From: Effrenium voratum | Lineage: Eukaryota; Sar; Dinophyceae; Suessiales; Symbiodiniaceae | Direction: 5' to 3' | Length of the DNA: 64,000 nt | Assembly: GCA_963377175.1 (NCBI GenBank) | Contig: CAUJNA010003057.1 | Span: forward strand, 90,001-154,000 | Shown here: piece after piece, positions 12,992 to 59,564 of the stretch | Position numbering within the stretch: the stretch's first letter is position 1 | Layout: each line of letters opens with the position of its first letter | Made by a program: the position numbers and the translations under genes | Notes under the pieces: model-generated | Told to the model about the DNA's origin: nothing | Database searches by the model: none | The model's input: only the letters and a program-made list of their open reading frames with translations

Positions 12992-13064
12992 GGATTCGTC
13001 CTCGGTTGGCACCGCGAACCCCCTATTAACAACCCTGCAGGCGCTGTAGGTTATTGTATATACG

Positions 13065-16745: not shown

Positions 16746-16755
16746 GCTCTCAAAC

Positions 16756-17695: not shown

Positions 17696-20198
17696 TGCTC
17701 ATCCCATAGCCAAGGCATATGAAGAGTATAGAGCTCGGTTTCAACGCCCTGAAGGGACAATGGAGTGGTCAGTGACCACTATTGGCGCTCGTACACTGCA
17801 AGGTACGTGTCCGGGCGGCCCGAATATCAGAGCTGTAATTCGCAGACGAACGATTCGTCTCTCGGACAACGCTCTGATTGATGATGTCGATTTGAGTGTA
17901 CCGACTCGCAAATCCGTTTTATTCAGACGGATTCCTGGGCCAATTGACATTAGGACGGATTTCTATTACTTGCCCGGTAAGTGCGGCCAGTATAACTCTG
18001 AGCTCGCGAAGGCAGTGAGGATTAAGCTCACTGCTCGCAGGCTGAGTTTCAATGACAATGCTGAAATTCAGCAAGTTGAGAATATAAGGACACGTGACGA
18101 GCCTAGGCCGATCATGAATCGGCGGTCGCATTCTCACCCCATTCACCCGGATAGGTTGCGTCAACCTCCCGAGGTGATTGCGATGTCCGAGGAAAATGCT
18201 AGAATCCTAGCTGCCACTACTAGACAGATTGTACAGTTGCACTTAGGTGAGTATGTGCCTGATAATAGGTGGGCTCGTCGCCCTCGAATGATCAGGGAAA
18301 ATGTTCCTGATCAGATGCCTGCTATGCCTGGCCCACAAATCGAAATCCGGTGGCTTGCTGACACTGGGTGTCCTTTCGACTTGGTTGGGATGCACGACAT
18401 TCCCGCGCAGGATCATCGCCACATCAAGAATGGGCGAATCCAACATTCCTTGCAAACCGCAAATGGTGTTGCTGGGACTCAAGGTAGAGTTGATGCAACT
18501 GTTGAGTCACTTGACGAGGATATTGAAGCCTTTGTCATGGATAATACACCCTCGATTGTATCGATAGGGCGTAGGTGCGTGGATTTTGGATACAGTTTCC
18601 GGTGGGATGCTTTTGAGACGCCTGTTCTCATCTGTCCATCCGGAAGAACTGTTAGGCTCGACGTTATAAACAACGTCCCATACCTGCCTAAAGGGCCGGT
18701 TATGTTTGGAGCCCCGAACTTAGATGCATGTCCTGCGATACCGGCAATGCCCGGTCCAGTAATTGCCATGAACGATTCACTGTACCCTGCAGCTCGCTCT
18801 GAGGCCGACGCGCCTGACGAGGGGGGTGAAGTTGTTGAAATCAAACACCCTGAGGGCTACAGGACTGAAGCCCAGTTACGTGCTGAAGCTAAAACGCTTC
18901 AACACATGATGTCACATTTGCCAAAGAATCCTTTTTGCCCACATTGCCAACGCGCAAAGATGGAAAACGTGCGTTTGCACCGCCGGGGCGGTGCCGACGC
19001 GCATGAATGCACGAAATTCGGTGATATTGTCACTGTTGACACGATGGTGTTACACGGTTTAAAGGACCGTGGTGTGAATGGTGAAACGGACGCAGTCGTG
19101 TTTTACGATCTTGCGACCAAGTACATAGATGTACTCCCTGTTTTTAGTCGCTCTGTACCTAATACGGTAGAAGCCTTTCACAAGTTTATGGGTCCCGAAC
19201 CCAAGATTGGTCTGTTATACTCGGACCAAGCCAGAGAGTTTCTTGCGGCTACTCGCCGAATGGCTTGGGTGCATCACATGTCCACACCCGGAATGCCAAA
19301 GACGAATGGCATCATTGAAAACAAAGTGAAGCTAGTTCTGCATGGAGCAAGAGTACTCCTCAGACAAGCCGGCTTATCGCCCAAATGGTGGCCATTTGCC
19401 GTTCGCGCATTTTGCGCGGCCAGAAATCTCGAAAATCGAGGTGAAGGAACCGCATGGGGAAAGAGAAACGATGACAGGGATTTTCCCGGTCAACTCATCC
19501 CATTCGGATGTCTTGTTGATTTCAAGCCAATCGCGCCAAAACCGCGTAGGCTCGAAAAGGGGGGGCTCAAAAGGGACGACCATCACAAAGCTGATGAAGT
19601 TCCTACAAAAGATCACTGGATCTTCGATGAAGAATCTGGCAAACTCGTCAGAGTGCACGTTGAACCAAGGACTAAGCTATTCAAAGCTGACAGCGTTGAC
19701 GCTCCAATCGAGCATATTCGTCTCACCGCTGACTGTGATACATGGGTTCAGTATGATGAGGAAAATGGAGAAATGATGCACTCCGTAGACTGGAGATACG
19801 GTCCAGATTCCACCAAGGAGCTAAAAGCCCCGTGGACTGGAGAGACGTATTTCACTGTAAAGCCAAAAGAATTTGACCCTCTTGAGGACTCTGATTACGA
19901 GCCCGAAGGAGATGATGAACTAGCTGATGATTCAGGGCCGTCCGATCACGGAGAGGACGAGTACAGTAACGTGCCCGCTATGCCGGCACAGAAGATTGAC
20001 CCTGCATCTAAAGCGCCCAAATTCGGGCCAGTGTCGAAGCCTGGGATTTTCCTGGGTTATAGATTAGAGCCCGGTGGCCAGTGGAAGGGCGACTACTACG
20101 TTGCCGAACGGATTTTCCCGACCCAGTGTTCATCAAGTCAAAAGAATTTGGCGGAACCCCGAAGAGGGATACGTTTTTCCCATGTTGGCCGCCTATGA
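17646..20198 (+). CDS. pol: element 1 Pol: protease and integrase
   Basis: Entered by -1 frameshifting, so no start codon is needed. Aspartic protease signature LADTGC has its Asp at 18360. Integrase follows: HHCC-type zinc site (HMMSHL...CPHC, about 18904-18960), then the catalytic D (VDTMV, about 19036), D (YSDQA, about 19220) and E (IIENK, about 19312). The C-terminal part carries the copia-like GIFLGYRLEPGG motif near 20040. Upstream of the protease is about 230 residues of unknown function conserved in part with element 2. Compared with element 2, about 17 nt are missing near 20115, which shifts the frame and ends this piece at 20198. Confidence 0.9.
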   Translation: MRGAGRHPQAIGLVACPAHPIAKAYEEYRARFQRPEGTMEWSVTTIGARTLQGTCPGGPNIRAVIRRRTIRLSDNALIDDVDLSVPTRKSVLFRRIPGPIDIRTDFYYLPGKCGQYNSELAKAVRIKLTARRLSFNDNAEIQQVENIRTRDEPRPIMNRRSHSHPIHPDRLRQPPEVIAMSEENARILAATTRQIVQLHLGEYVPDNRWARRPRMIRENVPDQMPAMPGPQIEIRWLADTGCPFDLVGMHDIPAQDHRHIKNGRIQHSLQTANGVAGTQGRVDATVESLDEDIEAFVMDNTPSIVSIGRRCVDFGYSFRWDAFETPVLICPSGRTVRLDVINNVPYLPKGPVMFGAPNLDACPAIPAMPGPVIAMNDSLYPAARSEADAPDEGGEVVEIKHPEGYRTEAQLRAEAKTLQHMMSHLPKNPFCPHCQRAKMENVRLHRRGGADAHECTKFGDIVTVDTMVLHGLKDRGVNGETDAVVFYDLATKYIDVLPVFSRSVPNTVEAFHKFMGPEPKIGLLYSDQAREFLAATRRMAWVHHMSTPGMPKTNGIIENKVKLVLHGARVLLRQAGLSPKWWPFAVRAFCAARNLENRGEGTAWGKRNDDRDFPGQLIPFGCLVDFKPIAPKPRRLEKGGLKRDDHHKADEVPTKDHWIFDEESGKLVRVHVEPRTKLFKADSVDAPIEHIRLTADCDTWVQYDEENGEMMHSVDWRYGPDSTKELKAPWTGETYFTVKPKEFDPLEDSDYEPEGDDELADDSGPSDHGEDEYSNVPAMPAQKIDPASKAPKFGPVSKPGIFLGYRLEPGGQWKGDYYVAERIFPTQCSSSQKNLAEPRRGIRFSHVGRL

Positions 20199-20445
20199 GC
20201 GTCTGACTAGGGAGGTCCAGCTCCTAGATACTGGAGAAGGAAAGGGTCTTCCCAAAGCGGATGCTCCAACCGAACCGGACAACCAGCTCAATGCCGTTGG
20301 TCCGGGTTCTGATCATCCTAACGATGACAGTAGTGATCCTGCTGTTGACTCTGAAGCACCTGCTGATGTTCCTGAAAGGGACCACTGGGTGCGTGATGAA
20401 GAGTCCAAATCCTGGCACAGACACCATGTCGATGCTAGGCAATGA
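20110..20445 (+). pseudogene. pol: element 1 Pol fragment after integrase
   Basis: After the deletion near 20115 the homologous frame reads FSRPSVHQVKRIW, matching element 2 VVRPSIHQVKQIY, and runs to a TGA at 20443-20445. About a dozen bases are missing at 20437 relative to element 2, shifting the frame again. The content is a short conserved linker between integrase and the methyltransferase-like domain. Confidence 0.75.
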
Positions 20446-21214
20446 TAGATCTCCACTGCCTCCTGGAGGCCCGTCCCAAGCGGATGTGGATGATTATCGT
20501 GTAACTCATCTAAAGTACATTGACTCTACGCAACAGTGTATCCGTGATGACAGGAGAATCCTGAACCCTGGACATCGAGTCAGAACTCAAAAGTTCTGGA
20601 CTGGTGTGACCATTCTGTATGATAAAGGGCATGCTCCTTCTAGGGCTCCGAGGGTCACGCTGACCAAGTTTAAAAATAGGCTAGACAAAATCAAAGACCT
20701 CGACGCAGGTGAGCCTAAAGCCCACACCTTACACGGTGATGAGCTTGATTATGAGCAGAAGGAGGAAAGAAAGGAGAGGTCCTATTCTGGATCTGGTAAA
20801 CCCAACTCCATTTCTTCTACTGACTGGAGAGGTATGTCCGTCGGTATGCGAAGGATATACATCGAGGCTGAAAGGGAGGAAGCTCTGAAGCGAGCGCGTG
20901 CTGGCGAAGCCGCACCCTCCAAACCAGCTGGACCCGCTTTGATAAAGCGCAGATTGTTGATAGAATTTGCATGCGAACCTGACTCTAAGCTCTCCGCCAC
21001 AATGCTGGAACAGGGGGGTGACGCGATTCGCGTACACAAAGAGTCGTTCGACATTTTAAAGAATAAGGATATGACCAGATTGATTGAGATCGTCGATCAG
21101 AATCCTGGTTGTGACTTATGGGGCTCGATCCCGTGCGGACCGTGGAGTACTTGGCAGTATGTTAAATTTGTCTCAGTACGGTCCCGAGTTCGCAGTAGAG
21201 CTCAACGAAGCTAG
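20261..21214 (+). CDS. pol: element 1 Pol fragment: linker and N-half of methyltransferase-like domain
   Basis: The homologous part starts near 20440 (RSPLPPGGPSQADVDD). It includes HRVRTQKFWTGVTILYDKG and GKPNSISSTDW, both conserved in element 2. From about 20950 it reads LLIEFACEPDSKLSATM, then GSIPCGPWSTWQ near 21120, resembling motif I and the Pro-Cys motif IV of C5-cytosine methyltransferases. A one-base insertion near 21165 breaks the frame (element 1 GTTAAATTTGTCTCAG against element 2 GTCAACCTTTCTCAG). The part before 20440 is out of the real frame. Confidence 0.7.
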   Translation: MLQPNRTTSSMPLVRVLIILTMTVVILLLTLKHLLMFLKGTTGCVMKSPNPGTDTMSMLGNDRSPLPPGGPSQADVDDYRVTHLKYIDSTQQCIRDDRRILNPGHRVRTQKFWTGVTILYDKGHAPSRAPRVTLTKFKNRLDKIKDLDAGEPKAHTLHGDELDYEQKEERKERSYSGSGKPNSISSTDWRGMSVGMRRIYIEAEREEALKRARAGEAAPSKPAGPALIKRRLLIEFACEPDSKLSATMLEQGGDAIRVHKESFDILKNKDMTRLIEIVDQNPGCDLWGSIPCGPWSTWQYVKFVSVRSRVRSRAQRS

Positions 21215-22760
21215 ACGAACGTCGATGGTCATGTTTGCTGCTTTCCTTCGTGTCGCCAAACGCGTGCGTTTTAAGGGAGGTAGAATTGCATTTGAATGGC
21301 CGAGGCATTGCCTTGGTTGGAAGCAGCCATTTATGAGGCGTCTAACCGACGATCCCGACATCAGGTGTGTCGACGTTGACGGTTGCGACTTCGGAATGCA
21401 AACGTCCGATGGTGTTCCCATCAGGAAGCAGTGGCGGATCGCCACTTCTTGCCCTGAACTAGCCAACGAGCTACGAGGGCGCACGTGTAGCCACGAACTA
21501 GGCTACCCCCATGCCAGGATCGAGGGAAGCCTTACGCCCTTGACTGCGCGATATTTTATTGGGATGTGTAAAGCCGTGATTAAAGGTCTTTATGGGAATA
21601 AGCCCTATGCGGCTGCCCCTGCTACCTTGAGCGAGGGGGACGACGCTCCTACTGCGCCCGTTGAGGTAACGGAGGCCGATCCGTGTGCATGGAGGCGAGA
21701 CAAGGATGCCTTGCTCGTCCACATGTTGAACAATTATGCAACTCTCCCTACTCGGCAAACGCCTGGCTCTGCGGGCTTAGATTTAAGCTCGTGCCATGAA
21801 ATCATCGTTCCCGCTAAGGGAAGTGCTCTTGTGCAAACTGGATGCGCCTTTACTTTCCCAAGCGGAGTTTATGGCCGCATCGCACCGAGATCAGGTCTGG
21901 CAGTCAAGCACATGCTCGACGTAGGTGCAGGAGTAATTGACCCTGATTTCTCAGGAGAAGTGAGAGTGATGCTTTTTAATCACTCTGATTATGAGTTTCG
22001 AGTTCGACCTGGAGACAGGATCGCTCAACTCATACTCGAGAAAGTCATGATTGTTGATGCTAAGATCACCGTTAAACAACCCGACGTGACCGTCAGGGGG
22101 GTTAATGGTTTCGGCAGTACCGGCGGGTACCCTGCTGGTCCCGCCATAGGGTTATATGGAGATCCTGTTCCGCCGATGCCCAGATCGAACAAGGCTTCGG
22201 GGCATCAACCCAACTTACAGGGCATACCAACTTTTTACGCCTGTGTAGCAAGGCCTGTAACGAAGAAGGAGCAAGCTGGTAACGACAAGGCTCGTGCAGC
22301 ACTCCTCAAGGAGTGGACAAAGCTCCGAAAGTTGGGATGTTGGGATGAGTTGAGAGTTAGAGAATGGAAGAAAGTTGCTGCCGAAGCGCGAGCAAATGGC
22401 AAGACAGTCCATGTAGGAAGAATTTTTGACATATGTGTGGAAAAGAATCATGAACTCCCTGAGGATGATCCTAATAGGAAGTACAAAGGGAGAGTAGTGT
22501 TTGAGGGATGCTTTGTGAGGGACCAGGCAAATCACTGGGCCATGTTTTCCGAAGCTACCTCATGCCCGGCAACAATGGCCGCAGGCAAGATGTGTGATGC
22601 ATATGGCATGTTGCCTGGTCACGCACTACAAGTCAGTGATGGCGAATCCGCCTATACCCAAGCTAAGCTACTGGGTCCCACGACATGGGTGCGTCTTCCT
22701 AAGGATCAATGGCCGCAAGCATGGGTAGATGCTGGCTATGACGATCCGGTCTGTCCTTGA
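21084..22760 (+). CDS. pol: element 1 Pol fragment: methyltransferase-like C-half, dUTPase, start of RT
   Basis: The homologous part starts near 21166 (NLSQYGPEF). The methyltransferase-like C-half has FEWPRHCLGW, DGCDFGM and PIRKQWRIAT. dUTPase (about 21735-22130) shows all five motifs: PGSAGLDL, APRSGLA, GAGVIDPDFSGEV, RPGDRIAQLIL and the C-terminal RGVNGFGSTGG. It would hydrolyse dUTP to dUMP and keep uracil out of cDNA. From about 22250 the copia RT begins (EWTKLRKLGCWD, KGRVVFEGC, SDGESAYTQA with the first catalytic Asp). A one-base deletion near 22755 ends the frame; RT continues at 22757. Confidence 0.85.
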   Translation: MRSSIRILVVTYGARSRADRGVLGSMLNLSQYGPEFAVELNEARRTSMVMFAAFLRVAKRVRFKGGRIAFEWPRHCLGWKQPFMRRLTDDPDIRCVDVDGCDFGMQTSDGVPIRKQWRIATSCPELANELRGRTCSHELGYPHARIEGSLTPLTARYFIGMCKAVIKGLYGNKPYAAAPATLSEGDDAPTAPVEVTEADPCAWRRDKDALLVHMLNNYATLPTRQTPGSAGLDLSSCHEIIVPAKGSALVQTGCAFTFPSGVYGRIAPRSGLAVKHMLDVGAGVIDPDFSGEVRVMLFNHSDYEFRVRPGDRIAQLILEKVMIVDAKITVKQPDVTVRGVNGFGSTGGYPAGPAIGLYGDPVPPMPRSNKASGHQPNLQGIPTFYACVARPVTKKEQAGNDKARAALLKEWTKLRKLGCWDELRVREWKKVAAEARANGKTVHVGRIFDICVEKNHELPEDDPNRKYKGRVVFEGCFVRDQANHWAMFSEATSCPATMAAGKMCDAYGMLPGHALQVSDGESAYTQAKLLGPTTWVRLPKDQWPQAWVDAGYDDPVCP

Positions 22761-24868
22761 TTCTTGCCCTATACGGGCATCCTGATGCCGGCACGTTCTG
22801 GGAAAAGCATTGCGAAGCAAGGCTTATTGAGGTCGGATTTATCCGCGTCCCGGAGTGGCCGAGTGTATTTTATCATCCCAGGTATAAGCTCTTTCTTGTG
22901 GTGTATGTCGATGATTTTAAGATGGGTGGCCCATCCGCTAACCTATCGATCGGATGGGACCTCATTGGTCGGGTAATTACGATGGAACCGCCGGGTACCC
23001 TAAAGCGGTATCTGGGCTGCGAGCATGAGTTTGCTGCAGCAGATGTACAGGGTTTCTTCGACCCTCGCACTGCTTGGACTGTGGATCATCCACCATCCAA
23101 GGAAATGCCTGACATTCGTTTCGGAGAAAAGCGACTTCGAGCTGACGAGGTCAAATTCGACCCGGCTCGGGTGAAGATCATCAAATATAACGAAGCGTGC
23201 TTCATGGAAGCATGCGTTGACAGGTACAAGGAGCTATGCCTCCCCAAGTACCCTAGACCTCTGGTGAAGGCTGAGACGCCTTTTCTGGATGAAAGTAAAC
23301 CAGAGTTTGATGAGAATCCCATCAACCCGGAAGTAGATCAGCTGTTTGGGCAGCCGTCTCCTTGCCCAACAGACGTGATTGCTGAACAGCCCGGTGTCCT
23401 AGGCGACGCTGCAGCTGCAGTTCTCATGAAAATTTTGTATGGTGCTAGAATGGGTCGATACGACCTAATTAGACCTGTACAGGCTTTGGCCAGTCGAATC
23501 ACTAAGTGGAATCGACTGTGCGATAAGAAGCTTCATAAGATTGTTTCCTATATCAACTCCACGCTAGACCTACACCTATACGGGTGGGTCTGCGATAAGC
23601 CTAGTGACATTGAAATCGTCGCTTACTGCGATGCCGATCTCGCTGGAGATCGTACCGATTCCAAGAGTACGTCTGGTGTCCTTATTTGCCTAGTCGGCCC
23701 AAGGACATATGTTCCCATTACCGCAGTTAGCAAAAAGCAAACTTCGGTATCGAAATCGACTCCCGAAGCGGAGATCGTTGCACTAGATCATGGCGTGGCC
23801 AAGGAAGGCATGCCACTTGCACAGCTTTGGCAGTTTGCTATCGGTCAAGGCACCGGTAAGCCTGTCACGGTGAATTGTATGGAAGATAATGAGGCCGCAT
23901 GCCGCATCATTATCACTGGGAACAACCCAAACATGCGATATATGTCGCGTACTCAGCGAATCGACATTAGTTGGCTCAATGAAGTCTACAATGAACAGAT
24001 TTTTCGTTTCGTAGCATGTCCATCGCATTACCAAGGCGCGGACATTCTCACCAAAGCGTGCGTAGACAAGGTGACATGGGGTAGGAATTTGCAGACTTTA
24101 GGAATGTTTAATCCAGGATTCCTGGAGAAATTCATTAGCCATCCCACCCTCCCTGTCGTAAAGCCTGCTGCACCTGTTCTCCCCCCAATTAGGGGGGTAC
24201 GCATGGAAACCGATCAAAATTCATTTTTCAACAAATTCATCCAGCTAGCTGAATCCAGCTACATGGTTTTTGACATAGTTGAGGATCGATCAAATGTTTG
24301 CGATACGCGAAACATTTTCGTCGATTCTGAGCTTGGCATAACGCCTGAACCTCAGTTTGGTAGATGGCTTACTTACTTTGTTAGACCGGCCAGTATTTGC
24401 CCCGTTATCCCTAGACGGGGTACAATTGAAGGCTCCAGACCTAACATCTTGTTATGTAGATATAGCAGTTTGATCGATGCATCCACGCGAGGGAATTGGA
24501 GCAAGATCAGGCGCGCACGTGACCAGGTAGAGCAGTGCCAATCATGTCTAAACGACTTAATTGAGCACGCGCTGAACACGAAGTTTTCCGTAGGCATTTT
24601 CATACAGCCGAATACCTGGATTGCTAATCGCGATATTCTTGTCAAGCTTGGCGTAAACCGCTATAGCCGTGTTGTACACTATTGCTCATGTCTTGTAAAT
24701 AAACAGCATGTGCATGCATTGACATTAATTTGTATTTCACGACATGTGAACTCTTTCGCAGTTTTCAAATGCAACAGGATGTATCGCACTACACGTGTTG
24801 ATCCTCTTGTGCATGGCTTAGTTGTAAAATATGCGACCCGCGCTGCTCTTCAAACAGCCTCGAACTGA
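22757..24868 (+). CDS. pol: element 1 Pol fragment: RT palm, RNase H, C-terminal extension
   Basis: Starts mid-RT (LILALYGHPDAG). The RT active site YVDD is at about 22901-22914 (VVYVDDFK). RNase H (about 23620-24110) has YCDADLAGD, STPEAEIVALD, MEDNEAA and GADILTKA, the usual copia set. After RNase H there is about 250 residues of extension starting at PPIRGVRMETD; its WSKIRR and Cys-containing stretches match a frameshifted continuation in element 2 (52791-53153). Copia elements normally end shortly after RNase H. The extension has no family I recognise. Confidence 0.9.
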   Translation: MILALYGHPDAGTFWEKHCEARLIEVGFIRVPEWPSVFYHPRYKLFLVVYVDDFKMGGPSANLSIGWDLIGRVITMEPPGTLKRYLGCEHEFAAADVQGFFDPRTAWTVDHPPSKEMPDIRFGEKRLRADEVKFDPARVKIIKYNEACFMEACVDRYKELCLPKYPRPLVKAETPFLDESKPEFDENPINPEVDQLFGQPSPCPTDVIAEQPGVLGDAAAAVLMKILYGARMGRYDLIRPVQALASRITKWNRLCDKKLHKIVSYINSTLDLHLYGWVCDKPSDIEIVAYCDADLAGDRTDSKSTSGVLICLVGPRTYVPITAVSKKQTSVSKSTPEAEIVALDHGVAKEGMPLAQLWQFAIGQGTGKPVTVNCMEDNEAACRIIITGNNPNMRYMSRTQRIDISWLNEVYNEQIFRFVACPSHYQGADILTKACVDKVTWGRNLQTLGMFNPGFLEKFISHPTLPVVKPAAPVLPPIRGVRMETDQNSFFNKFIQLAESSYMVFDIVEDRSNVCDTRNIFVDSELGITPEPQFGRWLTYFVRPASICPVIPRRGTIEGSRPNILLCRYSSLIDASTRGNWSKIRRARDQVEQCQSCLNDLIEHALNTKFSVGIFIQPNTWIANRDILVKLGVNRYSRVVHYCSCLVNKQHVHALTLICISRHVNSFAVFKCNRMYRTTRVDPLVHGLVVKYATRAALQTASN

Positions 24869-25252
24869 GTAGGCTTGATGGACATTATTCACAACAGCAT
24901 TAGTCATGCTGCAATAACTAACGCAAATTCGCGACATTAGTTCAGGCACATTCGCCTCGATTAGATGGTTTGTGTTTGTGTCATTTTCCGCCCGGGTGGG
25001 CATGTCCATAGGGTAGCTTTGCAGTTTCATGTGTAGTGATGTAGCAGGGTTGTTGTCAACGCACGACTGTTTTTCATAGGTACGACCATATTCGGTCTTA
25101 TACCAGGGGAAATTGCCCCTTCGTACCCATAGAGATGGCACCCAAGGTTTACACACCTTTGGATGTGGAAGGTTTCCCTGTTCTCGAGGTATCTTCAGTG
25201 GTATTCTTTGTTTTAGTGGTACCCTACCGCTTCCCGGGCGCAAACTCGCGCC
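24869..25252 (+). other. element 1 pol-ORF3 spacer
   Basis: A 384-nt stretch without a convincing gene. Pyrimidine-rich tracts followed by AG (for example TGTTTTTCATAG near 25073-25080) could serve as splice acceptors for an ORF3 mRNA, but this is inference. The sequence is not alike in element 2. Confidence 0.5.
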
Positions 25253-28200
25253 ATGGCAGCGGCTGCATCCGCGGCCGGCGGAATGGCGGGCGCTGCCCCG
25301 CGCTCGAGAGGTTCATCTTTGGCGGCGCGACAGCAGGCGGACTATATGAACCCGAACTGCGCCTGCACCTTGGGTCCGCTTCCGGTGGAAGCGAAGCACG
25401 CAGCCAATGCGCTGTCAGATGAGAGGCCTACTCGGCTATCGGAAAATCTTAGAATTTGCTACCCGCACTTGACGGCAAAGTCCGATCAGTACGGTTATCG
25501 AACCACTGCTGAGACGCAGTTGGTGCAAGTCAAGGACGGTGTCAAGGACCCTCAGGTTGTCGGTGCCTTTTCCGGCATTTTCAACCTACTGGAGGGTTTT
25601 GACACGGGCATGATTGAGGACAAGTCTTTCGTCCCGGCCATCAAGAAATACCGCCGCCTACGCGTGGCTGGTATTCTCCAGGCCATGCTTCTAGGTGAGG
25701 TGGAGCTGAGTGACCAAAGCGTCTACACGGCTGCCATAATCATCTGTGAGGCAATGCCGCGAGAGCCTGAGCTCCACTGCGAGCCAACTCGGAACTCGCT
25801 GATCGATATGACATTGTCCACCGCCGTTTCCCCTTCACTGGTTCCCCGAGGCGGGAACTGGCTGTACGAGATGGCGAAGGTCGACTCACGCTGGCAGACC
25901 TTTTTCCAAGCGGCGAATAAAAATGTTATTCGCGCCATGCAGGCGGCCGTTGTAAAGGGTAGGAGGGATATGCCCTCGAATGTACAGCCGGCAGGAGCCG
26001 AGGAGGCATTCAAGGCCTGGGCATACCAGCGCCCAACTGCCCTTTGTACCCCACCCAAGGCGGTGGTTGGGTATATGAAGGCAATTCATTGCATCTCGGC
26101 CGATGCGCTGACAAAGATGCAAACGGTCAATGCACATGCCTTTGAAGTAGGATCCATGTGCAAGGAGATTGAGGCCTTGTGGTGCTCCTATGACGATTTT
26201 GTGGATTTCATCACGGATGAAATAGGGATTCCCCCCACCATATTTCACCTGATTGACTGGAAACGCGCTAAGCCGCTTACCATGCCGAGCAAGGAAATCG
26301 GGGATTGGCACGCCGGTGATCCCGTGCTTGAACGCGACGGGTATCTAGTGTTCCCGATGCGGCACTGCACAGAGCTCAATGCAGCCAGCATGCACGAGAG
26401 ATGGGTTCATGGAACACAATTCTCTTCCCTATGGAACATATTGGGCCATGGGAATGCCGTTGCATCGCTCGGAGATGCCGACACGCTAACAGGCGTGTGG
26501 ACATCGACGAAGCCCGTTTTTCTTGAGAGTTATTACTCTTGTCTCAGCCATATTGGCCTGGGCGTAACCGTCCGTCTGGCACTTTTGCTACGTCCTCTCG
26601 GTAAGAACGCCCACGACGCGTACAAGCATACTGAGAAGGGGCCTGCACACCAACGCGTGATAAGGCAATTCCGCGTTCGTGTTGAAGCAATCGCTCTCAA
26701 AGAAGAGACGATTGGTGAAGGGACGTCTGCTGTGGCGGGGAATTTGCTGTCGCATAACCCTGCCACGCACCTTTGGAATCCTGTGCTTGAGGTAAACCCT
26801 CACTCGGCAGAGGTCGGATGGATACGTCACGGCGCCAACCGCGTAGCGCTGACCATTGGGGCGGAAATTCCCGCCGGGTCGGTGGCACGTGAGGCGTCGG
26901 TTCCCCCGGCAAAGCCCGGCGGTGAGGTGGATTTTAAGTTCTTTCCTCAGGAGATCCGCGAACTCGGCGAGGTACATTGCTGCCCGCTGTTTGACACCTG
27001 GGAGCACTATGTTCCCGCTTCGGAAGGAAAATTCTTTCCCTTGGCTGGCGGCCTTCCCTTTTCAGGGGCTGCAAAGCTCATGTACCATGCGCCAGAGCAC
27101 CCGCTGTCGACGCTTGCCAACGCAGACACTCAATGCAGTGAGTTCATGAGCGCGATAAGCGGTAACATCTACCCTGATCGTCAGGACCGCCAACCTTATG
27201 AGCTTGTGCGGGAGATGTGGGAATCATGGGCGTTCAATGTCCGGACGTACATTATTTCCATGATTTGGCCCGTGACGGCAATGGAATACGCCGGCTGCGA
27301 GGAGCCGGACGATTTGGGGTTCGTTCTCACAATGCTGGGATACGTCAACCCCTCCGCTGCGGCTGGCCTATGCGCCGAGCTGCTAAGTGGATGTAAGCCA
27401 AACAAGGTCTCTTACATAGGTGTAGAGGGATCTCGTGTTGTGGTGCTGGTTGGACCCTCACACTGGGTTACCGGCAGCGCGGGTCAGTCCATTACTGAAG
27501 CAAAGCTTCAGGAGCAGTGGACGACCATCCGGACAAAGCTCCCGGCCAAAACCGGCGAGTACGCGCTGGAGGTCGTGGAGGTTGAGGAGGAGACCTCAGT
27601 AGCTGAGCTCCTCCGTACCGTGGTCAGCCAGAAACTAGCTGACCCGGTACATGCAGGTGCTCCTGCGGGCGCTAAGGATGATATATTCATCATCTTTACC
27701 AAATGCCTGTGGCTGACCGAATGGCGCAAGTCCGAAAACACGTATGGTCCCAGCCCCGATGCGGGTAGGATCATCGATGAAAACATCGATGCCATGAAGG
27801 CGTTCGCCAATAAGGGCGGCCGGAGCCAGGCACCGACGATAATCTTGTCGGGTCCGGGCATCGTTTGGCATGGGACAGCCATGCAGGAGGTCGCAACCAC
27901 GTTTTTCATGAAGTGCCGCGACGCTGGTTTCCCAGCCTACCCATCCAACGCGATGTGGTTCGGCTGCTCAAAGAAGAGCCTAAACGGCGGTGTTGTCGGT
28001 CTCGAAAGAGGCGGACACCAGTTTATGGGTCTTGTCTCGGCGTTCACCGACCTGGTATGCCTGCTGAGGCGTGAGTACTCGATGAGTGAGGAGGTCCGGG
28101 AAGCCCTGGCCATCGCTCTGGATTTCTTGGTAGAACATGACTACCTGATGAAACCATCGGAGTCATATCTGAGCGCTGCGAAGCAGTGCGGAGTCGGGGC

Positions 28201-31200
28201 AGGCCTCACACCGGTCGACCGGTGGTCCTCATCTGAGGATGCGCCATGGGCGGAGGTAATCTCTGCTCCTAGAACGATGTCGAGTGGCCCATGCGCCACC
28301 AGCCGTGTGTCGTCGGCCAAAGCGCCTGCCGCGGCCGATGCAAGAGCGTCTGAGCAGCAGTCTGCTCCTCGCCCCAACGCGGGAAATGGGCCACAGACAA
28401 TGGCTCAGCGCGTCCGGTCCTCGACGCCGCCCGCAACGGGGAGGCAGAGGCTGGGCCAAGCAATGGCCGATTTCGGCCAGTCAGCCGCAAGTCGCGGTCT
28501 CTCGCCGGCTGTTTGCGGCAATCAGAGGGGAACAATACCTGCAAAGCCAGCGCAGGCGTGCGGGTATAGTCCGACCACGACTGGTGGTCCGTCTAAAACA
28601 GGCGGCCACAGAATAGATTTGAAGCCTGCTACCGGGAAGCAGTTGTTGAAGGCTAAGCCTGATCCTCCCGAGCTTCCCAAGGACGCGTACTCCGATGACT
28701 TTCCATCCCTGTCCAAGCGCGAAGCCGCTAACAGATGGAGAGGTGGGGCCGCAAGGGGTCCCAGCTGCGCGCCACCTAAGGTGGGAGGGTCGTTGCCATG
28801 CCTGTCTTCGGCCGCTGGCCCTCCGCCAAAGGGTGCCGCTCCTTGTGCTAAAGGACCCGAGGTCAAAGCACCTGAGGTCACGGGCCCACCCGTGCCTAAA
28901 GCGGCAGGTGCTGACGCACCGACCGATGGGGGTTCGGGGGGGTGCGCTCCCGCGAATAGCGAGATCACGCACCCTCGGCCCGAGGTTCCACCGCGGAAGG
29001 CAGTGAAGAGCCCCCCGGCTAGTCTGTCTGAGCCGGCGAAGCCTAACCAGGCGGAGCCGCCACCTAAGCGTGGGGACAGCGTTCCAGATGTCGCTGGTGG
29101 GGATAATCCTCAACCAGGAGACAGCACTCCGTCCCTGTCGACCGATGCGTCGATGGGGATGGCTTCCCATCCCGAAGCATCCAGAGCTGTTGGTCAGGAT
29201 GTACAGCCCGAACCTGCGGATGCAGGCGGGGCCAAAAGGGCTTCACCCAGCCAAGGCGCTGCGGGTGGAGACAATGATGGGGACGGCGATGGGGCGAAGG
29301 GAGATTCCCCTACCTCCCCTGCCGATGAGCTCCCGGGCCGCGACGATCCTATGGATGGGAGCGGGACTGGTGGGGATGGTGGACCCGATCCACCCGATGG
29401 CGACGATGATCCGTCTGAACCCGGAGACCATGAAACTGGTCCGGATTCGGAATATTATGCGCCCGCTGAAAGCGCGGATGCCTGCATCGCAGTGCACTAC
29501 CTGTTCCGGAGAGCAGGTTACCCGCCAGCGTTGGCGGCGTGGAGGAACGGGGCCTGGCCAAGGCGCCTTCTTTACCCTGTTCAGGCTAATTCCATTGAGG
29601 ATGCCCTCGCTCTACCTCTGTGGCAAGGCCTGTCAGAGGATGGGTTTTTCCAGCTGCTGGACAATGCTTCAGCAACTGATCGTCGCTTCGGCGAATACGA
29701 CTGGGATTTCCTGTCAAAGGCCATTATGTCTGACACGATGAATGCCGATGAAATTCATCACGCGGGAGCCAAAGCGCTTGCTGATTGGGCTGAGGAGAAC
29801 CTTGGGCCATTGTCGATTGGCCCTCGGTCGGACCTGGTCGCACGGTTTAATCAGATGCAGACCGAGGGGAGGCATCCAAACAGGGAATCGGCAAATGAGT
29901 CTAGTGTCGGCTCAGGGAAACAATATGTTCCCCGTCCTCCGATGGAGGATCAGCCGAACTCGAACCAGATCTCCGCCGACGTATTCCGCGGTCGGGAGAT
30001 CCGTTTGGGGCTCACTATGCCTGACTCCCAAAGCGGAGATGACGAGCTCAGCGCGCAGGACGCAACGTGGAACGTTGCGTACTGCGATTTTTACAGGGCC
30101 GCCGCGAATCTGTGGCGTGCGAGGTCATGCTTGCGCGAAGCCGCAGGATGCATGATTGAAACTGGGTATATTCACCCTCAGATGGCTGCCGCCATTGCGG
30201 CGACCGAAAAGGTCGAAAGATTTTGTAATGTTCTTCGGGCTGCCAACCGCTATGCCGGTTTAGGCACGTATCGATTCAATGAAATCGTGGGCAGGAATCT
30301 GCTCGATGGATACGACGGCTGGAGAACTCCTCCGGGGGAGAACGACCATCCCGAGTTCCTTGCTCGGGAAGTTGAGGACGTATTCCGTTCCTATTGCGCG
30401 GGCCTTTTGAGGTCTGAAAGTTTCGACCTCAGGTCCTGCGTAATTGAGCCGGAGACGGCGCCCAAGGCGGAGCCGGCTCCCAAGATGAAGCCACCCCCTC
30501 CATCTCTGTCGGCAAGTAAGGGCCCTCCTAGGCGATCGGCTCCTGCTGTACATACTGGGTCGGCTCACACCGCCAAGCGTCCGAGAGAGGCTGGCGGTGG
30601 CTCTTCTGGGAACGTGCAGATCCCAGGACATTATTACGGCAAAGCCCGTACAAAGGAATCCCCTGCTCAATCCTCTGAACCGCCAATGGGCGGAGCAGGG
30701 GGGAGCGCGCAGCCATCCGAAATGGATGTGGATAAGGAGGGGAATAAGGGTGACGAGAAGAAGGACAAAGCGGCCAATGAGGCTGCTGTAGCGTCAAAGA
30801 GCGCAAAGCCGCATCCGGCGAAAGCGTCGCGTCCCGAGGCCCTAGGCGGCTCGTTGGACGTGACACTAATCAGCGACGTACGGGAGCGTGATCGGGATAT
30901 TTCCGATGATGAGTTTTCCCCTACGAACGTGTGCATGTTTCCAGAATCATGGGAGGGCGCAATGCCGACCTCCGTGATTGACAAGGCCGGAGGCTTTGAG
31001 CAGTTTAGGAACGAGCTCATGAGGATCCAGAGAGTCCTGGATTCTCCGGCGTTGGTCGACCTTGGTAAGGTCGATCTGGACGCTCTGGGCGAGCCGCCCA
31101 AGGAGTACGTCTCGGATGAAGATCACGAGAGTTATGTAGACGATGATGGAATGGGTCCATATGTGGACAAATTCTCATCAATGGGTGACCGCGACCTAGT

Positions 31201-31633
31201 GCCCTCAAAGCAGGAGCCGCCTTACTATGAGGCAAAGGCGTGGCGCACCACTGAAGAAGAAATTGAAAGGATGAAGAACCTTTTTCCATTCTTTCGTGCC
31301 GAAAATTATCGGCTTATGTCTGCGAGTACTGGTCCCATAGGTACCAAGTCGCACGTACAGGGCGTCCTCCCGACAGGTGCGTCGTTGGAAGAGGCACTGA
31401 TGGCTAAGCCCGATGTGTGCCCGATTACGAGCACCTACAACCTCACATACGAGGGTGAAGAGGTTGTGATTGATGCACAGGGCGGGATAGCAGGCAGAAT
31501 CGCCTGTCCTGCCGGAAAAGACATCTTCCATTTTTTCCCCGAAATTAGGGATGTGTCGGCGTTTGTTGGACGAAGCTCCAGGGAATCGCAAATGCTGCTA
31601 GAAGTTTTGTCGGTTAAACGTGAAGCCCGGTGA
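25253..31633 (+). CDS. element 1 ORF3 polyprotein, unknown function
   Basis: 2126 codons from ATG 25253, in a good initiation context (CGCGCCATGGC). I do not recognise the protein as a whole. Region A (about 25640-28140) matches element 2 (YRR.R motif; TAAIIICEAMP against TAAAILCDAIP). Inserted in it at about 26390-26900 is an ADP-ribosyltransferase-like stretch (HGTQFSSLWNIL, GVWTSTKPVF) absent from element 2. About 28250-29470 is a Pro/Ala/Gly linker. Region B (about 29470-30440) has FNEIVGRNLLDG, matching element 2 FHQIVGELDRVDD. Region C (from about 30850) has WEGAMPTSVIDKAGGFEQF. No signal peptide or membrane segment is evident. The frame is lost at about 31625; homology continues at 31685-33889 in other frames. 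Confidence 0.85.
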   Translation: MAAAASAAGGMAGAAPRSRGSSLAARQQADYMNPNCACTLGPLPVEAKHAANALSDERPTRLSENLRICYPHLTAKSDQYGYRTTAETQLVQVKDGVKDPQVVGAFSGIFNLLEGFDTGMIEDKSFVPAIKKYRRLRVAGILQAMLLGEVELSDQSVYTAAIIICEAMPREPELHCEPTRNSLIDMTLSTAVSPSLVPRGGNWLYEMAKVDSRWQTFFQAANKNVIRAMQAAVVKGRRDMPSNVQPAGAEEAFKAWAYQRPTALCTPPKAVVGYMKAIHCISADALTKMQTVNAHAFEVGSMCKEIEALWCSYDDFVDFITDEIGIPPTIFHLIDWKRAKPLTMPSKEIGDWHAGDPVLERDGYLVFPMRHCTELNAASMHERWVHGTQFSSLWNILGHGNAVASLGDADTLTGVWTSTKPVFLESYYSCLSHIGLGVTVRLALLLRPLGKNAHDAYKHTEKGPAHQRVIRQFRVRVEAIALKEETIGEGTSAVAGNLLSHNPATHLWNPVLEVNPHSAEVGWIRHGANRVALTIGAEIPAGSVAREASVPPAKPGGEVDFKFFPQEIRELGEVHCCPLFDTWEHYVPASEGKFFPLAGGLPFSGAAKLMYHAPEHPLSTLANADTQCSEFMSAISGNIYPDRQDRQPYELVREMWESWAFNVRTYIISMIWPVTAMEYAGCEEPDDLGFVLTMLGYVNPSAAAGLCAELLSGCKPNKVSYIGVEGSRVVVLVGPSHWVTGSAGQSITEAKLQEQWTTIRTKLPAKTGEYALEVVEVEEETSVAELLRTVVSQKLADPVHAGAPAGAKDDIFIIFTKCLWLTEWRKSENTYGPSPDAGRIIDENIDAMKAFANKGGRSQAPTIILSGPGIVWHGTAMQEVATTFFMKCRDAGFPAYPSNAMWFGCSKKSLNGGVVGLERGGHQFMGLVSAFTDLVCLLRREYSMSEEVREALAIALDFLVEHDYLMKPSESYLSAAKQCGVGAGLTPVDRWSSSEDAPWAEVISAPRTMSSGPCATSRVSSAKAPAAADARASEQQSAPRPNAGNGPQTMAQRVRSSTPPATGRQRLGQAMADFGQSAASRGLSPAVCGNQRGTIPAKPAQACGYSPTTTGGPSKTGGHRIDLKPATGKQLLKAKPDPPELPKDAYSDDFPSLSKREAANRWRGGAARGPSCAPPKVGGSLPCLSSAAGPPPKGAAPCAKGPEVKAPEVTGPPVPKAAGADAPTDGGSGGCAPANSEITHPRPEVPPRKAVKSPPASLSEPAKPNQAEPPPKRGDSVPDVAGGDNPQPGDSTPSLSTDASMGMASHPEASRAVGQDVQPEPADAGGAKRASPSQGAAGGDNDGDGDGAKGDSPTSPADELPGRDDPMDGSGTGGDGGPDPPDGDDDPSEPGDHETGPDSEYYAPAESADACIAVHYLFRRAGYPPALAAWRNGAWPRRLLYPVQANSIEDALALPLWQGLSEDGFFQLLDNASATDRRFGEYDWDFLSKAIMSDTMNADEIHHAGAKALADWAEENLGPLSIGPRSDLVARFNQMQTEGRHPNRESANESSVGSGKQYVPRPPMEDQPNSNQISADVFRGREIRLGLTMPDSQSGDDELSAQDATWNVAYCDFYRAAANLWRARSCLREAAGCMIETGYIHPQMAAAIAATEKVERFCNVLRAANRYAGLGTYRFNEIVGRNLLDGYDGWRTPPGENDHPEFLAREVEDVFRSYCAGLLRSESFDLRSCVIEPETAPKAEPAPKMKPPPPSLSASKGPPRRSAPAVHTGSAHTAKRPREAGGGSSGNVQIPGHYYGKARTKESPAQSSEPPMGGAGGSAQPSEMDVDKEGNKGDEKKDKAANEAAVASKSAKPHPAKASRPEALGGSLDVTLISDVRERDRDISDDEFSPTNVCMFPESWEGAMPTSVIDKAGGFEQFRNELMRIQRVLDSPALVDLGKVDLDALGEPPKEYVSDEDHESYVDDDGMGPYVDKFSSMGDRDLVPSKQEPPYYEAKAWRTTEEEIERMKNLFPFFRAENYRLMSASTGPIGTKSHVQGVLPTGASLEEALMAKPDVCPITSTYNLTYEGEEVVIDAQGGIAGRIACPAGKDIFHFFPEIRDVSAFVGRSSRESQMLLEVLSVKREAR

Positions 31634-32091
31634 GCAGCCTCCCTTCTTGTTTGGGACGGTCCCAGACATTCTGGGAGGTTGGATGTCCTCTGATCTCAAC
31701 GCTACTTGAGAGGGATCACAAGTGCACGAGTGTCGAGGTAGCGACCTGGGCGGGTGCTCTCGCAATGGAAAGCGTACCCTCCAGTCAAGCTCCTAACACG
31801 GACAGTCTGGAGGACAGATGTGTGCGCCCGAATGAGGTGCTTTTTGCGCGGTCCACCCTAATCGGGAGGGACGTGCCGTTCAAAGTTTTCAAGCGTTGGG
31901 CACTGCGTGACCGAACGCCTATGGGGCCTTTGCTTAGGCCGATGGGAGCCAGAAGTCCCTTATACGGGATACGTGCTGCTGACGATGGCGAGTATCGGTG
32001 CCCTCAAAACGAGGTGCCCGGAGGCCTGGCAAATTCGCCATCACAGTTTTCCCCATGCGACCTGAGCAGGTCTGCAGGGGGGAGATCATGA
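31630..32091 (+). pseudogene. element 1 ORF3 continuation, fragment 2
   Basis: From about 31690 this frame reads PFKVFKRWALRDRTPMGPLL and GEYRCPQN, matching element 2 LYKVVPLRMYRLYVERGAII and GECPND. The first about 20 codons are probably out of frame: the true sequence between 31625 and 31685 lies in the +1 frame (KPGEQPPFLFGTVPDILGG). Homology leaves this frame near 32015. Confidence 0.6.
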
Positions 32092-32360
32092 TTGGGATGG
32101 AGGGCGCAAAGGTGCCTTTCCTCAAGTTGCCCAGCCCCAATAATGAGGGCGAATTTTATGTTGACGACCGCGTCAAGTACATGGACAAGCGCCATGTCGT
32201 TGTGGCCGTTGACCTAAAGTGGATGGCCATCGAGGAAGCCGCCGGCATCTACAAAACCCGACGCGGTTTGATCGCCGTGCGGGAAGAGATACATGCGCCA
32301 TTCTGGCGCGCATGCTATCTGCATCAGGAAGGGGATGTACCGCCCCTGGGCGGTCCGTGA
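31998..32360 (+). pseudogene. element 1 ORF3 continuation, fragment 3
   Basis: Contains VVVAVDLKWMAIEEAAGI and EIHAPFWRACYLHQEGD, which match element 2 VMAIDARFFSMENGGM and NIAIGYWRCVYFKED. There is no ATG at the start, so this is a frame segment and not a separate gene. Homology moves to the next frame near 32340. Confidence 0.6.
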
Positions 32361-33573
32361 GTTAAATGTTCAGGGACCGCGGAGAGGGGTGTCATTTTCA
32401 TGGGACAATGCTCCCATGCATGACTACTGGTGCCCTCGGTGCGCGCATTTGAACATGTATGGCACCATTCTATGCAATGGTTGCCATCTGCCGATTTTCT
32501 ATCGTGAATGGGTGCCTGGCACCGTCCGCGCTCTGGTTAAGCATGGACAGCCAATCTGGCTGAGCGAACTCAAAGCAGTCCGCCCCAGCAGCTGGCATGA
32601 AGGGGAGACCGACGCGTGGGCCCCTCTCATGGCATCGGTAAACCCGATTCGCGAGGTGGTCAGCTGCATGATCACCGGTTTGCGCTGCGCGCCGCATCTT
32701 GTGCACACTCCCAATGCGGATATTGTGCAAGTTGCGTTTCAGGAGGTTGCAAAGGTCACCTCAAAGGACACTCACGCTTGTGTGCGGGCGAGTGATGAGG
32801 CTCTCGAGCGGTGGGTAGCGAAGCAGCTGCTCATCGAGGAGAGCAACACTGGCGTCTCGATTCCCGACAATATGTCTGTCATGGCATATTTAATCGAGCA
32901 CCCGCAACAGGCGGCGCAATGGGGTCGTCATATGACGAGAAAGGGCAGTCTAAATTCAGCATTTGCCCTTTACCTGCATATCTTCGATGCCTACCGCATC
33001 GGGATTGAGGACGGATATTTGGTTCCGCTGTATGGCCTAGGCGCCTCACGCGCGGACATCATAATGTCATTGGTACAGGCTGAGCGACGCCTCGCGGACT
33101 TCAATAGTGAAGATCCGAGTTTTGATGCTTCCACTGTTCTTGATTGGAGCATCGAATCTCTGCGGGCCAGTGGTGGATCCATCACGGCTCCAATTGAGTA
33201 TGCTGAGGCATACATTTATGTCGAAGACAACAAGGTTGACATGGTCCCCGCTGCACGGCGCGACGGCCAATGCGCCATTGTTTTTGCTGAACCGCCGGCT
33301 GGGAAGCACCACAGGCGGACAGCCACGCCTAGGGGAGACCAACGGTCTGCTACCCCGCGACCTGAATCCAGGTCAAAGGGAGATCAGCAAAAGGGCAAAG
33401 CCCCTGCGCAATCCTGGCCCAAGGGCGGGGGTCACAAGGGTGACCAATTTCCCGGAAAGGGTCACAAAGGTGATCAGTACAAAGGCAAGGGGCCAATACG
33501 GCTACCAACAAGGGCAGTTCGGTCGTGGCGGATCCGCCAGATCAAGAACTCCCACTGGCGGGTATCAGCCTGA
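32293..33573 (+). CDS. element 1 ORF3 continuation, zinc ribbon and helical region
   Basis: Homology to element 2 starts near 32340 (YRPWAVREL against LRPWCYPPN), so ATG 32293 is probably not a real start. A C-x2-C-x11-C-x2-C zinc ribbon lies at about 32430-32484 (CPRC...CNGCHLPIFY), present also in element 2. About 250 mostly helical residues follow (MTRKGSLNSAFALYLHIFDAYRIGIEDGYL against RLTTANFNANRCGFYTSYYMVEAHIIGLRSGHL). The tail is basic, with repeated KGDQ/KGK units. An extra G near 33488 takes it out of frame before its stop. Confidence 0.7.
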   Translation: MRHSGAHAICIRKGMYRPWAVRELNVQGPRRGVSFSWDNAPMHDYWCPRCAHLNMYGTILCNGCHLPIFYREWVPGTVRALVKHGQPIWLSELKAVRPSSWHEGETDAWAPLMASVNPIREVVSCMITGLRCAPHLVHTPNADIVQVAFQEVAKVTSKDTHACVRASDEALERWVAKQLLIEESNTGVSIPDNMSVMAYLIEHPQQAAQWGRHMTRKGSLNSAFALYLHIFDAYRIGIEDGYLVPLYGLGASRADIIMSLVQAERRLADFNSEDPSFDASTVLDWSIESLRASGGSITAPIEYAEAYIYVEDNKVDMVPAARRDGQCAIVFAEPPAGKHHRRTATPRGDQRSATPRPESRSKGDQQKGKAPAQSWPKGGGHKGDQFPGKGHKGDQYKGKGPIRLPTRAVRSWRIRQIKNSHWRVSA

Positions 33574-33889
33574 TGCTCGCGGATCGGGGTACAAGGGTGC
33601 TCAGGCAGCTCCTTTCCCTTTCCCGAGTCCGATGTACCCCGCTTTCCCAATGGGAGGGTACATACAACAGCCCATGGCTGGTATGATGCCACAAATGTGG
33701 CCAGGCGCAATGCCGCAGAGTTGGCAGCCGCATATGCAGGGCGATCCCCGCGAGTTCGAAAATCCGAACTCGCCGCACACCCCTACCTGGGGTGACGATG
33801 ACGAGCTAGCCGAGACAGTGCCTCCTCCCCCTGGGGACTGGAATGCCAGCAAGGGGAAGGGGCGGCACGGCCGTGGGCGACATCGGTGA
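33488..33889 (+). CDS. element 1 ORF3, C-terminal Gly/Gln/Pro-rich tail
   Basis: Continues the basic tail in the shifted frame: GQYGYQQGQFGRGGSARS, then Met/Pro-rich sequence (PMYPAFPMGGYI, MMPQMWPGAMP) and a final GKGRHGRGRHR. This looks like an RNA-binding, disordered tail. The longer open frame in this phase begins at 33107, but its first part overlaps the real frame of the preceding segment. Confidence 0.65.
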   Translation, partial: RGQYGYQQGQFGRGGSARSRTPTGGYQPDARGSGYKGAQAAPFPFPSPMYPAFPMGGYIQQPMAGMMPQMWPGAMPQSWQPHMQGDPREFENPNSPHTPTWGDDDELAETVPPPPGDWNASKGKGRHGRGRHR

Positions 33890-34548
33890 TACCTGGAGTC
33901 TGCCCATGCGTTTTTTATTAATTTGCCCGACTGCGCCAACGCGCGCATGCCTTTATTCCGGAGATTTTTCCGGAAGGGCTATGCTCCTTGCCATATTTCA
34001 ATGATTTGGCTATTCGCCACTCCAGAATTTAATTGCGCGCGTGGCTGTGCGCTATTCGCGCAAGCTGCGATGTCCTGTCAGGTGTGCGTCGTCACAGCAA
34101 GGCAGTTACCCTCGCCGGCGTCTACGGCTGCTGGTGGTCAGCTTCATCCAGCACCGCTGCTGCTGCTGGCGATGGAACCCATCAAGATGCTGTGGTGAGG
34201 ATCTCGGATGCGCTGCACCGCCGCCGGTGAGGTCCTACTCGGACCTGAACCGCTGATTGCAGCTGGTGGTACTCCTGCCGAAGGTCGTTGTGTGATCGCG
34301 CGCCTAGACGGTGCTACTTTAAAGACCAAGGTCTTGTGGTCGAAGCACCATGTATCAACCAGTGGGCCAAAGCGCCTAAATCATGAATTCAGAAACTAAA
34401 TCCACTTGAACCTTACGGTTCATTGTGGTTGCATTGCAAATGTATTTATATTTCATGCCTGCCATTCTGAAGTTGAATCTTTGGTTCTGTTTCCTTTTGC
34501 TTCCTCTTGTTTGATTTGGCTACCGGCGCGAATCCGCCCCATACCCGT

Positions 34549-34569
34549 AATTCGGGGTGGTGGCGGGAT
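34549..34569 (+). promoter_or_regulatory. conserved 3'-UTR motif shared by both elements
   Basis: The sequence ending TTCGGGGTGGTGGCGGGAT is identical over 21 nt at 62096-62116 of element 2, also about 150-165 nt before the right LTR. An upstream CCCG (about 34544) can pair with CGGG in the motif; element 2 has CCCCG/CGGGG. Possible RNA hairpin; function unknown. Confidence 0.6.
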
Positions 34570-34702
34570 CCGGGCACCAAGGAGTGCCCGGGTATGGGGA
34601 CGCGAACCCTGGAAGCCCAATCGGCTTTGTTTTTCTTGTTTATTGCCTTTCAACTTCAACATGGCCAATGCGCCCTTCCAAATTCACTCCATCTCTTTGT
34701 AC

Positions 34703-34714
34703 AGGCGAGGGGGG
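34703..34714 (+). promoter_or_regulatory. polypurine tract
   Basis: AGGCGAGGGGGG abuts the TG of the right LTR, the place where plus-strand cDNA synthesis is primed in LTR elements. Confidence 0.75.
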
Positions 34715-35170
34715 TGTTTTTGGGGGCATGTAGTTTTATCATAACATGTTTCCACGCCACGGCCAATGCGCCGTCTGGCTCAAGCTTTTCACTCGTCGAC
34801 TTTGCCTGCCATCTCGTCGGAAAGAGCCCGCGGCGCTCCTCACGCCGGCCGCACTACGTCGCGGCCGTCGTTGCTGGGGCGGTGGTCTTGGATCCGGAGG
34901 TGGGTCGGGTTTTGGTTGGAGTGCGCTGCTACTGCTCGCTCTGCTCGCTTGGTGCTGCTTGCCGCTGGTTTGCTTGCTTGCTCTGCGCTGTGCTGCGCTT
35001 CTGCTTGGTTTATTCTTGTTACAAACGAGGCACCCCTTTTGGTTCGTGTTAGTGCCGGCCGGGGGCAACTGCTTTGCCCTTGGGACCGGGGGGGATAAGG
35101 TGGTCTCTTCTTGTTGGTGGGTTAGGGCCTGTTTTATCCATCCCGAAACTCTGTTTCAAACCCTTTCGCA
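34715..35170 (+). repeat. element 1 right LTR
   Basis: The second copy of the 456-bp LTR, offset 22,193 bp from the left one. I find no difference between the two by eye, including the hairpin and TGGCTCAAG. Confidence 0.97.
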
Positions 35171-40472: not shown

Positions 40473-40486
40473 GGTTATCAGCCGTA
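40473..40486 (+). promoter_or_regulatory. primer binding site, half-tRNA type
   Basis: The same 14 bases as in element 1 (GGTTATCAGCCGTA), directly after the LTR; the leader diverges at once after them. Complementary to an anticodon arm with loop CUGAUAA. Confidence 0.7.
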
Positions 40487-40564
40487 CCAGCTAGAAGCTG
40501 GGGCTGGTGATCCGGTTGCGGGACGTGACCCGCTACCTGCTCCCATCGCCTACTTGTACGAGCA

Positions 40565-59550: not shown

Positions 59551-59564
59551 CGAGCACCGACGGG

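Follow-up and report, generated by a model that had tools for sequence, protein, structure and literature searches.

LTR (long terminal repeat) retrotransposons of bdelloid rotifers have a dUTPase domain in pol, and some of their lineages (Vesta) also possess a GDSL-type third open reading frame (ORF3), according to the sections of the published account that describe them (PMC5408684). Among non-LTR elements, the ORF1 protein of the CR1-like ZfL2-1 contains an SGNH esterase that is reported, in the portion of the paper cited here, to be active and to bind negatively charged phospholipids (PMC3905857). Closer to our organism, Symbiodinium clade C is described as having expanded retrovirus-related dUTPases, often intronless and some with RT (reverse transcriptase) domains (PMC6001144), and, among the retrotransposons of Symbiodinium genomes, Copia elements as the most abundant group (PMC5890265); the relevant parts of these two accounts describe no third frame. 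Here we analyse a window of 64,000 nucleotides from the dinoflagellate Effrenium voratum (GenBank assembly GCA_963377175.1, contig CAUJNA010003057.1, positions 90,001 to 154,000 of the forward strand), which contains two LTR retrotransposons, element 1 (E1) and element 2 (E2), each with a very long ORF3 between pol and the 3' LTR (Table 1). At the level of titles and abstract beginnings, the open-licence literature yielded no report that LTR elements of dinoflagellates or Symbiodinium possess a third gene, and within that literature this ORF3 is under-described.

ORF3 is a real, selected third gene of these elements. The two frame-broken ORF3 copies of the window are damaged members of families that also keep unbroken copies, as is shown by further genomic copies in which ORF3 forms one frame. 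The genome (1.16 Gb, 3,699 contigs) was searched for further copies, and the first look gave, as a loose figure, 1,127 E1-type and 5,641 E2-type candidate places, from which 46 and 68 were scored. Of the 46 E1-type copies that were scored, 11 have frames that stay open for 2,900 aa (amino acids) or more. In six E1-type copies picked for long frames, ORF3 measures 2,900-2,908 aa from Met in five and extends to 2,991 aa in one; in the copy L031, for instance, it is a single frame of 2,901 aa from Met. A frame of identical length, 3,162 aa, was found in 9 of the 68 scored E2-type copies, including L037 (3,102 aa if counted from the Met at residue 61), and the E2-type matches other than the window itself (67 of 68) span query residues 187-650 only. 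The length of an intact ORF3 is 8.7-9.3 kb, and the approximately 450 aa that the E2 ORF3 of the window lacks near 54227 are present in L037. Moreover, the C-terminus of pol lies upstream of ORF3 in all 30 E1-type loci, and the third frame after pol that a preliminary description had recognised in both elements is upheld by this linkage together with the collinear blocks and the unbroken copies. P0003, which is 77% identical to L031, is matched at 91-98% by six of 66 scored copies and exactly by none, and a subfamily E1' is therefore also present in this genome. E1 has identical LTRs yet a broken ORF3, a combination that may reflect either assembly indels or partner elements that copied an already defective RNA.

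The substitution pattern among copies points to constraint on the protein. Over aa 1-999, the 435 pairs formed by 30 E1-type copies gave a median synonymous divergence (dS) of 0.125 and a median nonsynonymous divergence (dN) of 0.020 (pooled dN/dS = 0.163; 0.04 to 0.26 in ten 100-codon windows), and the full frame in six E1-type copies gave dN/dS = 0.18 (15 pairs; eleven blocks, from 0.11 in the ribbon block to 0.25 in the disordered linker), all of these copies being E1-type and either ranked best by protein similarity or picked for long frames, which lowers dN. The median divergence of the non-coding gap between pol and ORF3 is 0.11 (29 copies, 406 pairs, L024 excluded), near dS. The preliminary description had named a dN/dS near 1, or blocks that match a host gene captured once, as outcomes that would speak against such a gene; the ratio is instead 0.16-0.18 in E1-type copies, and no host gene was matched in the libraries searched. 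That ORF3 is a captured and now functionless host gene, or a random long frame, would agree with the broken frames in the window, but this is extremely improbable in view of these ratios, of the unbroken copies, and of the occurrence of ORF3 in two element types that share just 23-32% of their residues in aligned blocks.

Three significant blastp blocks are collinear between the two ORF3 types, represented by L031 and L037: residues 86-523 and 119-571 (E = 2e-17, 23% identity), 1545-1731 and 1575-1766 (E = 2e-18, 32%), and 2214-2616 and 2217-2627 (E = 6e-28, 24%). The same order of blocks had been proposed for both frames, and it holds for these three, whereas the peptides taken to mark a region C (AMPTSVI in E1 and AMLPTTI in E2) fall outside every significant block. 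Between the first and second blocks, aa 640-990 also appear, from alignment scores, to be homologous in E1 and E2: when the E2 sequence was shuffled 1,000 times, the observed score was never reached (z = 7.9; z of about 5 for the SGNH-like part), and hhalign paired 276 collinear columns with E = 0.023 at a probability of just 2.1%. The first block includes, near aa 384, the motif WxHG...G(V/I)WTS, which is conserved in E1, E1' and E2 and has a presumed likeness to ADP-ribosyltransferases. A domain of this kind in ORF3, modifying host proteins or RNA, seems quite improbable to us: no ART-type match was obtained in Pfam (E up to 10, with the HMMER filters dropping most matches above about 0.1) or in the PDB profile search, and no confident model is available. 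With no ART, PARP or KptA profile match, the assignment was set aside.

The sole fold lead in ORF3 is suggested by modelling of this intermediate part, where an SGNH/GDSL-like domain is predicted. Most of the top PDB matches to the low-confidence model, identified with Foldseek and VIA-align, are SGNH enzymes; the same-fold comparison against a viral library returned a mixed match list, and the absence of a family from the VIA list does not exclude that family. In E1, Ser736 (in the GPS motif) and His922 are kept in 30 of 30 copies, but neither the block III Asn nor the Asp of the Asp-His pair was seen in these copies. In E2, none of the catalytic Ser, Asn and His is present at the aligned sites, the placement of which follows the E1/E2 alignment (hhalign probability 2.1%). 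The block I Ser, block III Asn and block V Asp/His expected of an SGNH hydrolase are thus not found in both types, and we do not claim that ORF3 belongs to the SGNH hydrolases, because its catalytic set is incomplete, the element has an apparent Ty1/copia order and the protein is far longer. An active esterase or lipase, at least in the E1 type, might modify lipids or acyl groups during assembly or exit of the particle, as proposed for the rotifer GDSL ORF3s. The invariant Ser and His of E1 would suit such an enzyme, as would the intact catalytic residues of the rotifer proteins and the active, lipid-binding esterase of ZfL2-1; it is nonetheless unlikely, given the residues missing from E1 and from E2, the latter being the more numerous type by the loose first-look candidates (5,641 against 1,127).

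Compared by description, the bdelloid GDSL-type ORF3 seems to be the closest known system. It shares with E1 and E2 an extra ORF behind pol and a dUTPase in pol, and a GDSL/SGNH-type domain in ORF3, which is predicted here; the bdelloid GDSL ORFs are also said to have no transmembrane (TM) or coiled-coil domain, and by hydropathy the E1 and E2 ORF3 are likewise without a clear TM segment. However, as far as the cited sections go, the bdelloid elements are retrovirus-like with the dUTPase between PR (protease) and RT, their catalytic residues are intact, their GDSL clones are 1.3 kb long and their ORF3 variation is mostly neutral (PMC5408684), whereas the elements studied here have an apparent Ty1/copia order with the dUTPase after integrase, incomplete or lost catalytic residues, an ORF3 of 8.7-9.3 kb with further blocks, and dN/dS of 0.16-0.18 in the E1 type. 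The ORF1 proteins of CR1/L2/RTEX similarly combine an SGNH-type domain with an accessory protein thought to join RNP (ribonucleoprotein) assembly, but in the portion of the source used they are catalytically active and encoded upstream of the RT gene in non-LTR elements (PMC3905857), unlike in E1 and E2. Resemblance of our ORF3 to the rotifer and CR1-like proteins would therefore be in outline at most. A sense ORF of unclear role between pol and the 3' LTR is also shared with the aORFs of plant LTR retrotransposons, which, again compared by description and from part of the source, are called env-like and in some cases have TM domains (PMC7264820).

An env-like product is not indicated by the hydropathy of ORF3. 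Averaged over 19 residues, it peaks at 1.47 in L031 and at 1.63 in L037, the latter being a borderline window (frame residue 975) within the predicted SGNH-like region, and the hydropathy profile shows no clear transmembrane segment in either protein, in agreement with the membrane segments being reported as absent in the preliminary description. ORF3 might still be envelope-like in a wide sense, acting in cell-to-cell transfer with an attachment part that is unrecognised by sequence. Its location behind pol and before the 3' LTR, a site usually taken by env genes, its separate cistron and the one borderline window would accord with this idea, which we consider very doubtful since L031 has no such window, the window of L037 lies inside the predicted SGNH-like region and the tail is basic and of low complexity. 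An env-like protein was accordingly thought unlikely and set aside.

Searches for known families added little. For ORF3, neither a family above cut-off nor one with a convincing E-value came from Pfam, NCBIfam, PHROGs and PADLOC, PDB sequence searches gave no relevant match, and no relative was found in the protein database with the long ORF3 query or in viral_contigs. Shorter profile queries of the protein database retrieved 18 and 24 ENA fragments, some of E2 type and others of E1 type (56-98% identical), all of them unnamed and lacking any Pfam domain. In the C-terminal part, both types have a ribbon with the spacing C-x2-C-x10-C-x2-C, in place of the x11 spacing (C-x2-C-x11-C-x2-C) given at first. 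The RanBP2/NZF-type zinc finger has the consensus C-x2-C-x3-N-x6-C-x2-C, a spacing that is found in the E1 ribbon, with the Asn replaced by His in E2; the RanBP2-type matches of Foldseek have E-values of at least 2.3 on a C-terminal model too poor for use, and Pfam zf-RanBP is not listed. Assignments of the ribbon to zf-FPG_IleRS, DZR or RanBP2 were weak, all below cut-off, and were set aside.

We tentatively propose, as a possible and still uncertain reading, that ORF3 is an accessory scaffold of the RNA-protein particle of the element, organised around a mostly non-catalytic SGNH-like domain and without a clear membrane segment. In E1, ORF3 is set apart from pol by a stop codon and about 385 nt of non-coding sequence, and the protein would therefore be translated from a separate mRNA. 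Its basic tail and zinc ribbon could bind element RNA or cDNA, while the SGNH-like domain would serve as a docking or binding surface (for lipid, a partner protein or nucleic acid) and not as an esterase, because the aligned sites of E2 are devoid of catalytic residues and, in E1, Ser and His alone are kept; the other conserved blocks may hold protein partners. The nucleic-acid role suggested earlier is plausible from the KG/RG tails and the ribbon, but it counts against this part of the proposal that no nucleic-acid-binding family reached cut-off in the profile searches of ORF3. Retrocopies joining the spliced leader to ORF3 gave 0 matches, as did the reversed control (acceptors up to 30 nt from one conserved site). 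ORF3 may alternatively be a host-directed regulator and not a particle component, for instance one that counteracts silencing or that targets chromatin. Its multi-domain build, the lack of any gag or pol domain found in it, the ribbon and tail, and the many candidate copies (1,127 and 5,641 at first look) are compatible with such a function; with no chromatin or silencing-suppressor family above cut-off in the profile searches, we regard it as rather unlikely.

A selected ORF3 product of about 3,000 residues, for which the first look gave 1,127 and 5,641 candidate places in one genome, suggests that these elements rely on more than gag and pol. It is a serious possibility, if short of a probable one, that a giant Ty1/copia lineage in dinoflagellates built, from a degenerate SGNH-fold domain together with a ribbon and a basic tail, an accessory protein of 3,000 residues that exceeds its own Pol in size; this would be a product class for which no counterpart is described, and it would be so old that its members, accompanying pol throughout, now share about 25% identity. 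Should the SGNH-like domain be confirmed, rotifer, CR1/L2-group and protist retroelements would all have employed one fold in their accessory proteins, perhaps by independent recruitment. The role of the fold in retroelements would then become testable, above all as the catalytic residues are here incomplete or lost.

Table 1. Positions of the two elements, their ORF3 and other features in the 64,000-nt window
Feature	Positions	Strand	Basis or remark
E1, LTR retrotransposon, 22.6 kb	12522..35170	+	LTRs 12522-12977/34715-35170, 456 bp, 100% identical; target-site duplication ATTTC
E1 pol: dUTPase domain, 5' of RT	21735..22124	+	Pfam PF00692, E = 2e-37
E1 non-coding gap, pol stop to ORF3 start, ~385 nt	24869..25252	+	present in the 29 copies aligned
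E1 ORF3	25253..33889	+	frame-broken, five overlapping frame segments; unbroken copies L031-L035
E1 region A (YRR..., TAAIIC.A.P)	25508..25972	+	blastp block with E2; YRRLRVAG at 25649
E1 block largely common to E2, around WxHG...SLW...G(V/I)WTS	25970..26932	+	blastp block 86-523/119-571; motif at 26402
E1 predicted SGNH/GDSL-like domain, aa 725-909	27425..27979	+	Foldseek and VIA-align, low-confidence model; GPS within 27437-27475
E1 region B (IVG at 30275, VFRSYC)	29885..30445	+	blastp block 1545-1731
E1 region C peptide AMPTSVI	30959..30979	+	weak; outside significant blastp blocks
E1 zinc ribbon C-x2-C-x10-C-x2-C	32431..32484	+	Cys 2414, 2417, 2428, 2431
E1 helical block after ribbon (approximate)	32551..33040	+	blastp blocks
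E1 basic KG/RG tail (approximate)	33390..33889	+	L031: pI 10.2, 14 KG/GK
E2, LTR retrotransposon, 22.6 kb	40073..62648	+	LTRs 40073-40473/62247-62648, 402 bp, 99.75% identical; target-site duplication GTAAC
E2 pol: dUTPase domain, 5' of RT	49987..50361	+	Pfam PF00692, E = 5e-34
E2 ORF3	53669..61610	+	frame-broken, five overlapping frame segments, internal deletion near 54227; unbroken copy L037
E2 putative counterpart of SGNH-like domain (end approximate)	54536..55088	+	alignment with E1 (0/1000 shuffles as good); YDLC replaces GDS
E2 region B (IVG at 57313, VFRSMC)	56959..57513	+	blastp
E2 region C peptide AMLPTTI	57911..57931	+	weak; outside significant blastp blocks
E2 zinc ribbon C-x2-C-x10-C-x2-C	59455..59508	+	Cys 2425, 2428, 2439, 2442
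E2 helical block	59571..60182	+	blastp
E2 basic RG/RD tail (approximate)	60750..61607	+	L037: pI 11.2, 19 RG/GR, 26 RD/DR

The LTRs of both elements start with TG, end with CA and are bordered by 5-bp target duplications, as in members of the LTR retrotransposons, and the insertions look recent because of these termini and duplications and the near-identity of the LTRs. Read by eye, pol encodes a protease motif, a zinc/DDE integrase-like segment, the dUTPase, RT (YVDDF) and an RNase H motif in this order, with integrase upstream of RT, and the gene order is apparently that of Ty1/copia. The RVT_2 profile matched RT weakly and below threshold in both elements (E = 8e-4 and 19.4 bits in E2, where the curated cut-off is 31.6; E = 0.057 in E1). 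CCCH-type zinc fingers (PF00642) occur near the end of the gag region (17317-17535 in E1 and 45341-45403 in E2), and no CCHC knuckle is among the Pfam matches listed for the gag regions. A further conserved pol domain lies between integrase and dUTPase (20957-21700 in E1, with a counterpart in E2) and includes LIEFACEP, SIPCGPWSTW and EWPRHCLGW; by eye, the domain recalls the motifs of C5-cytosine methyltransferases in both elements, and Pfam listed no match.

The first bases after both 5' LTRs (12978 and 40474) are GGTTATCAGCCGTA, a common candidate for the primer-binding site without the usual TGG start. Both LTR families also contain TGGCTCAAG, at 12583 and 34776 (offset 61) and at 40127 and 62301 (offset 54), and nowhere else in the window. 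It equals the 3'-terminal part of the spliced leader of dinoflagellates as printed in PMC6050394, which accords with a dinoflagellate host. The match is modest when taken alone (15 of 2,000 shuffles were as good for E2 and 283 of 2,000 for E1), and a scan for the spliced leader with 3 mismatches revealed no excess (2 matches, 2.5 expected). If the RNA of the elements were trans-spliced at TGGCTCAAG, the spliced leader itself would be the start of the strand-transfer repeat. The two elements are flanked by tandem arrays at 488-1300 and 62876-63571, with units of 14 bp and 99 bp.
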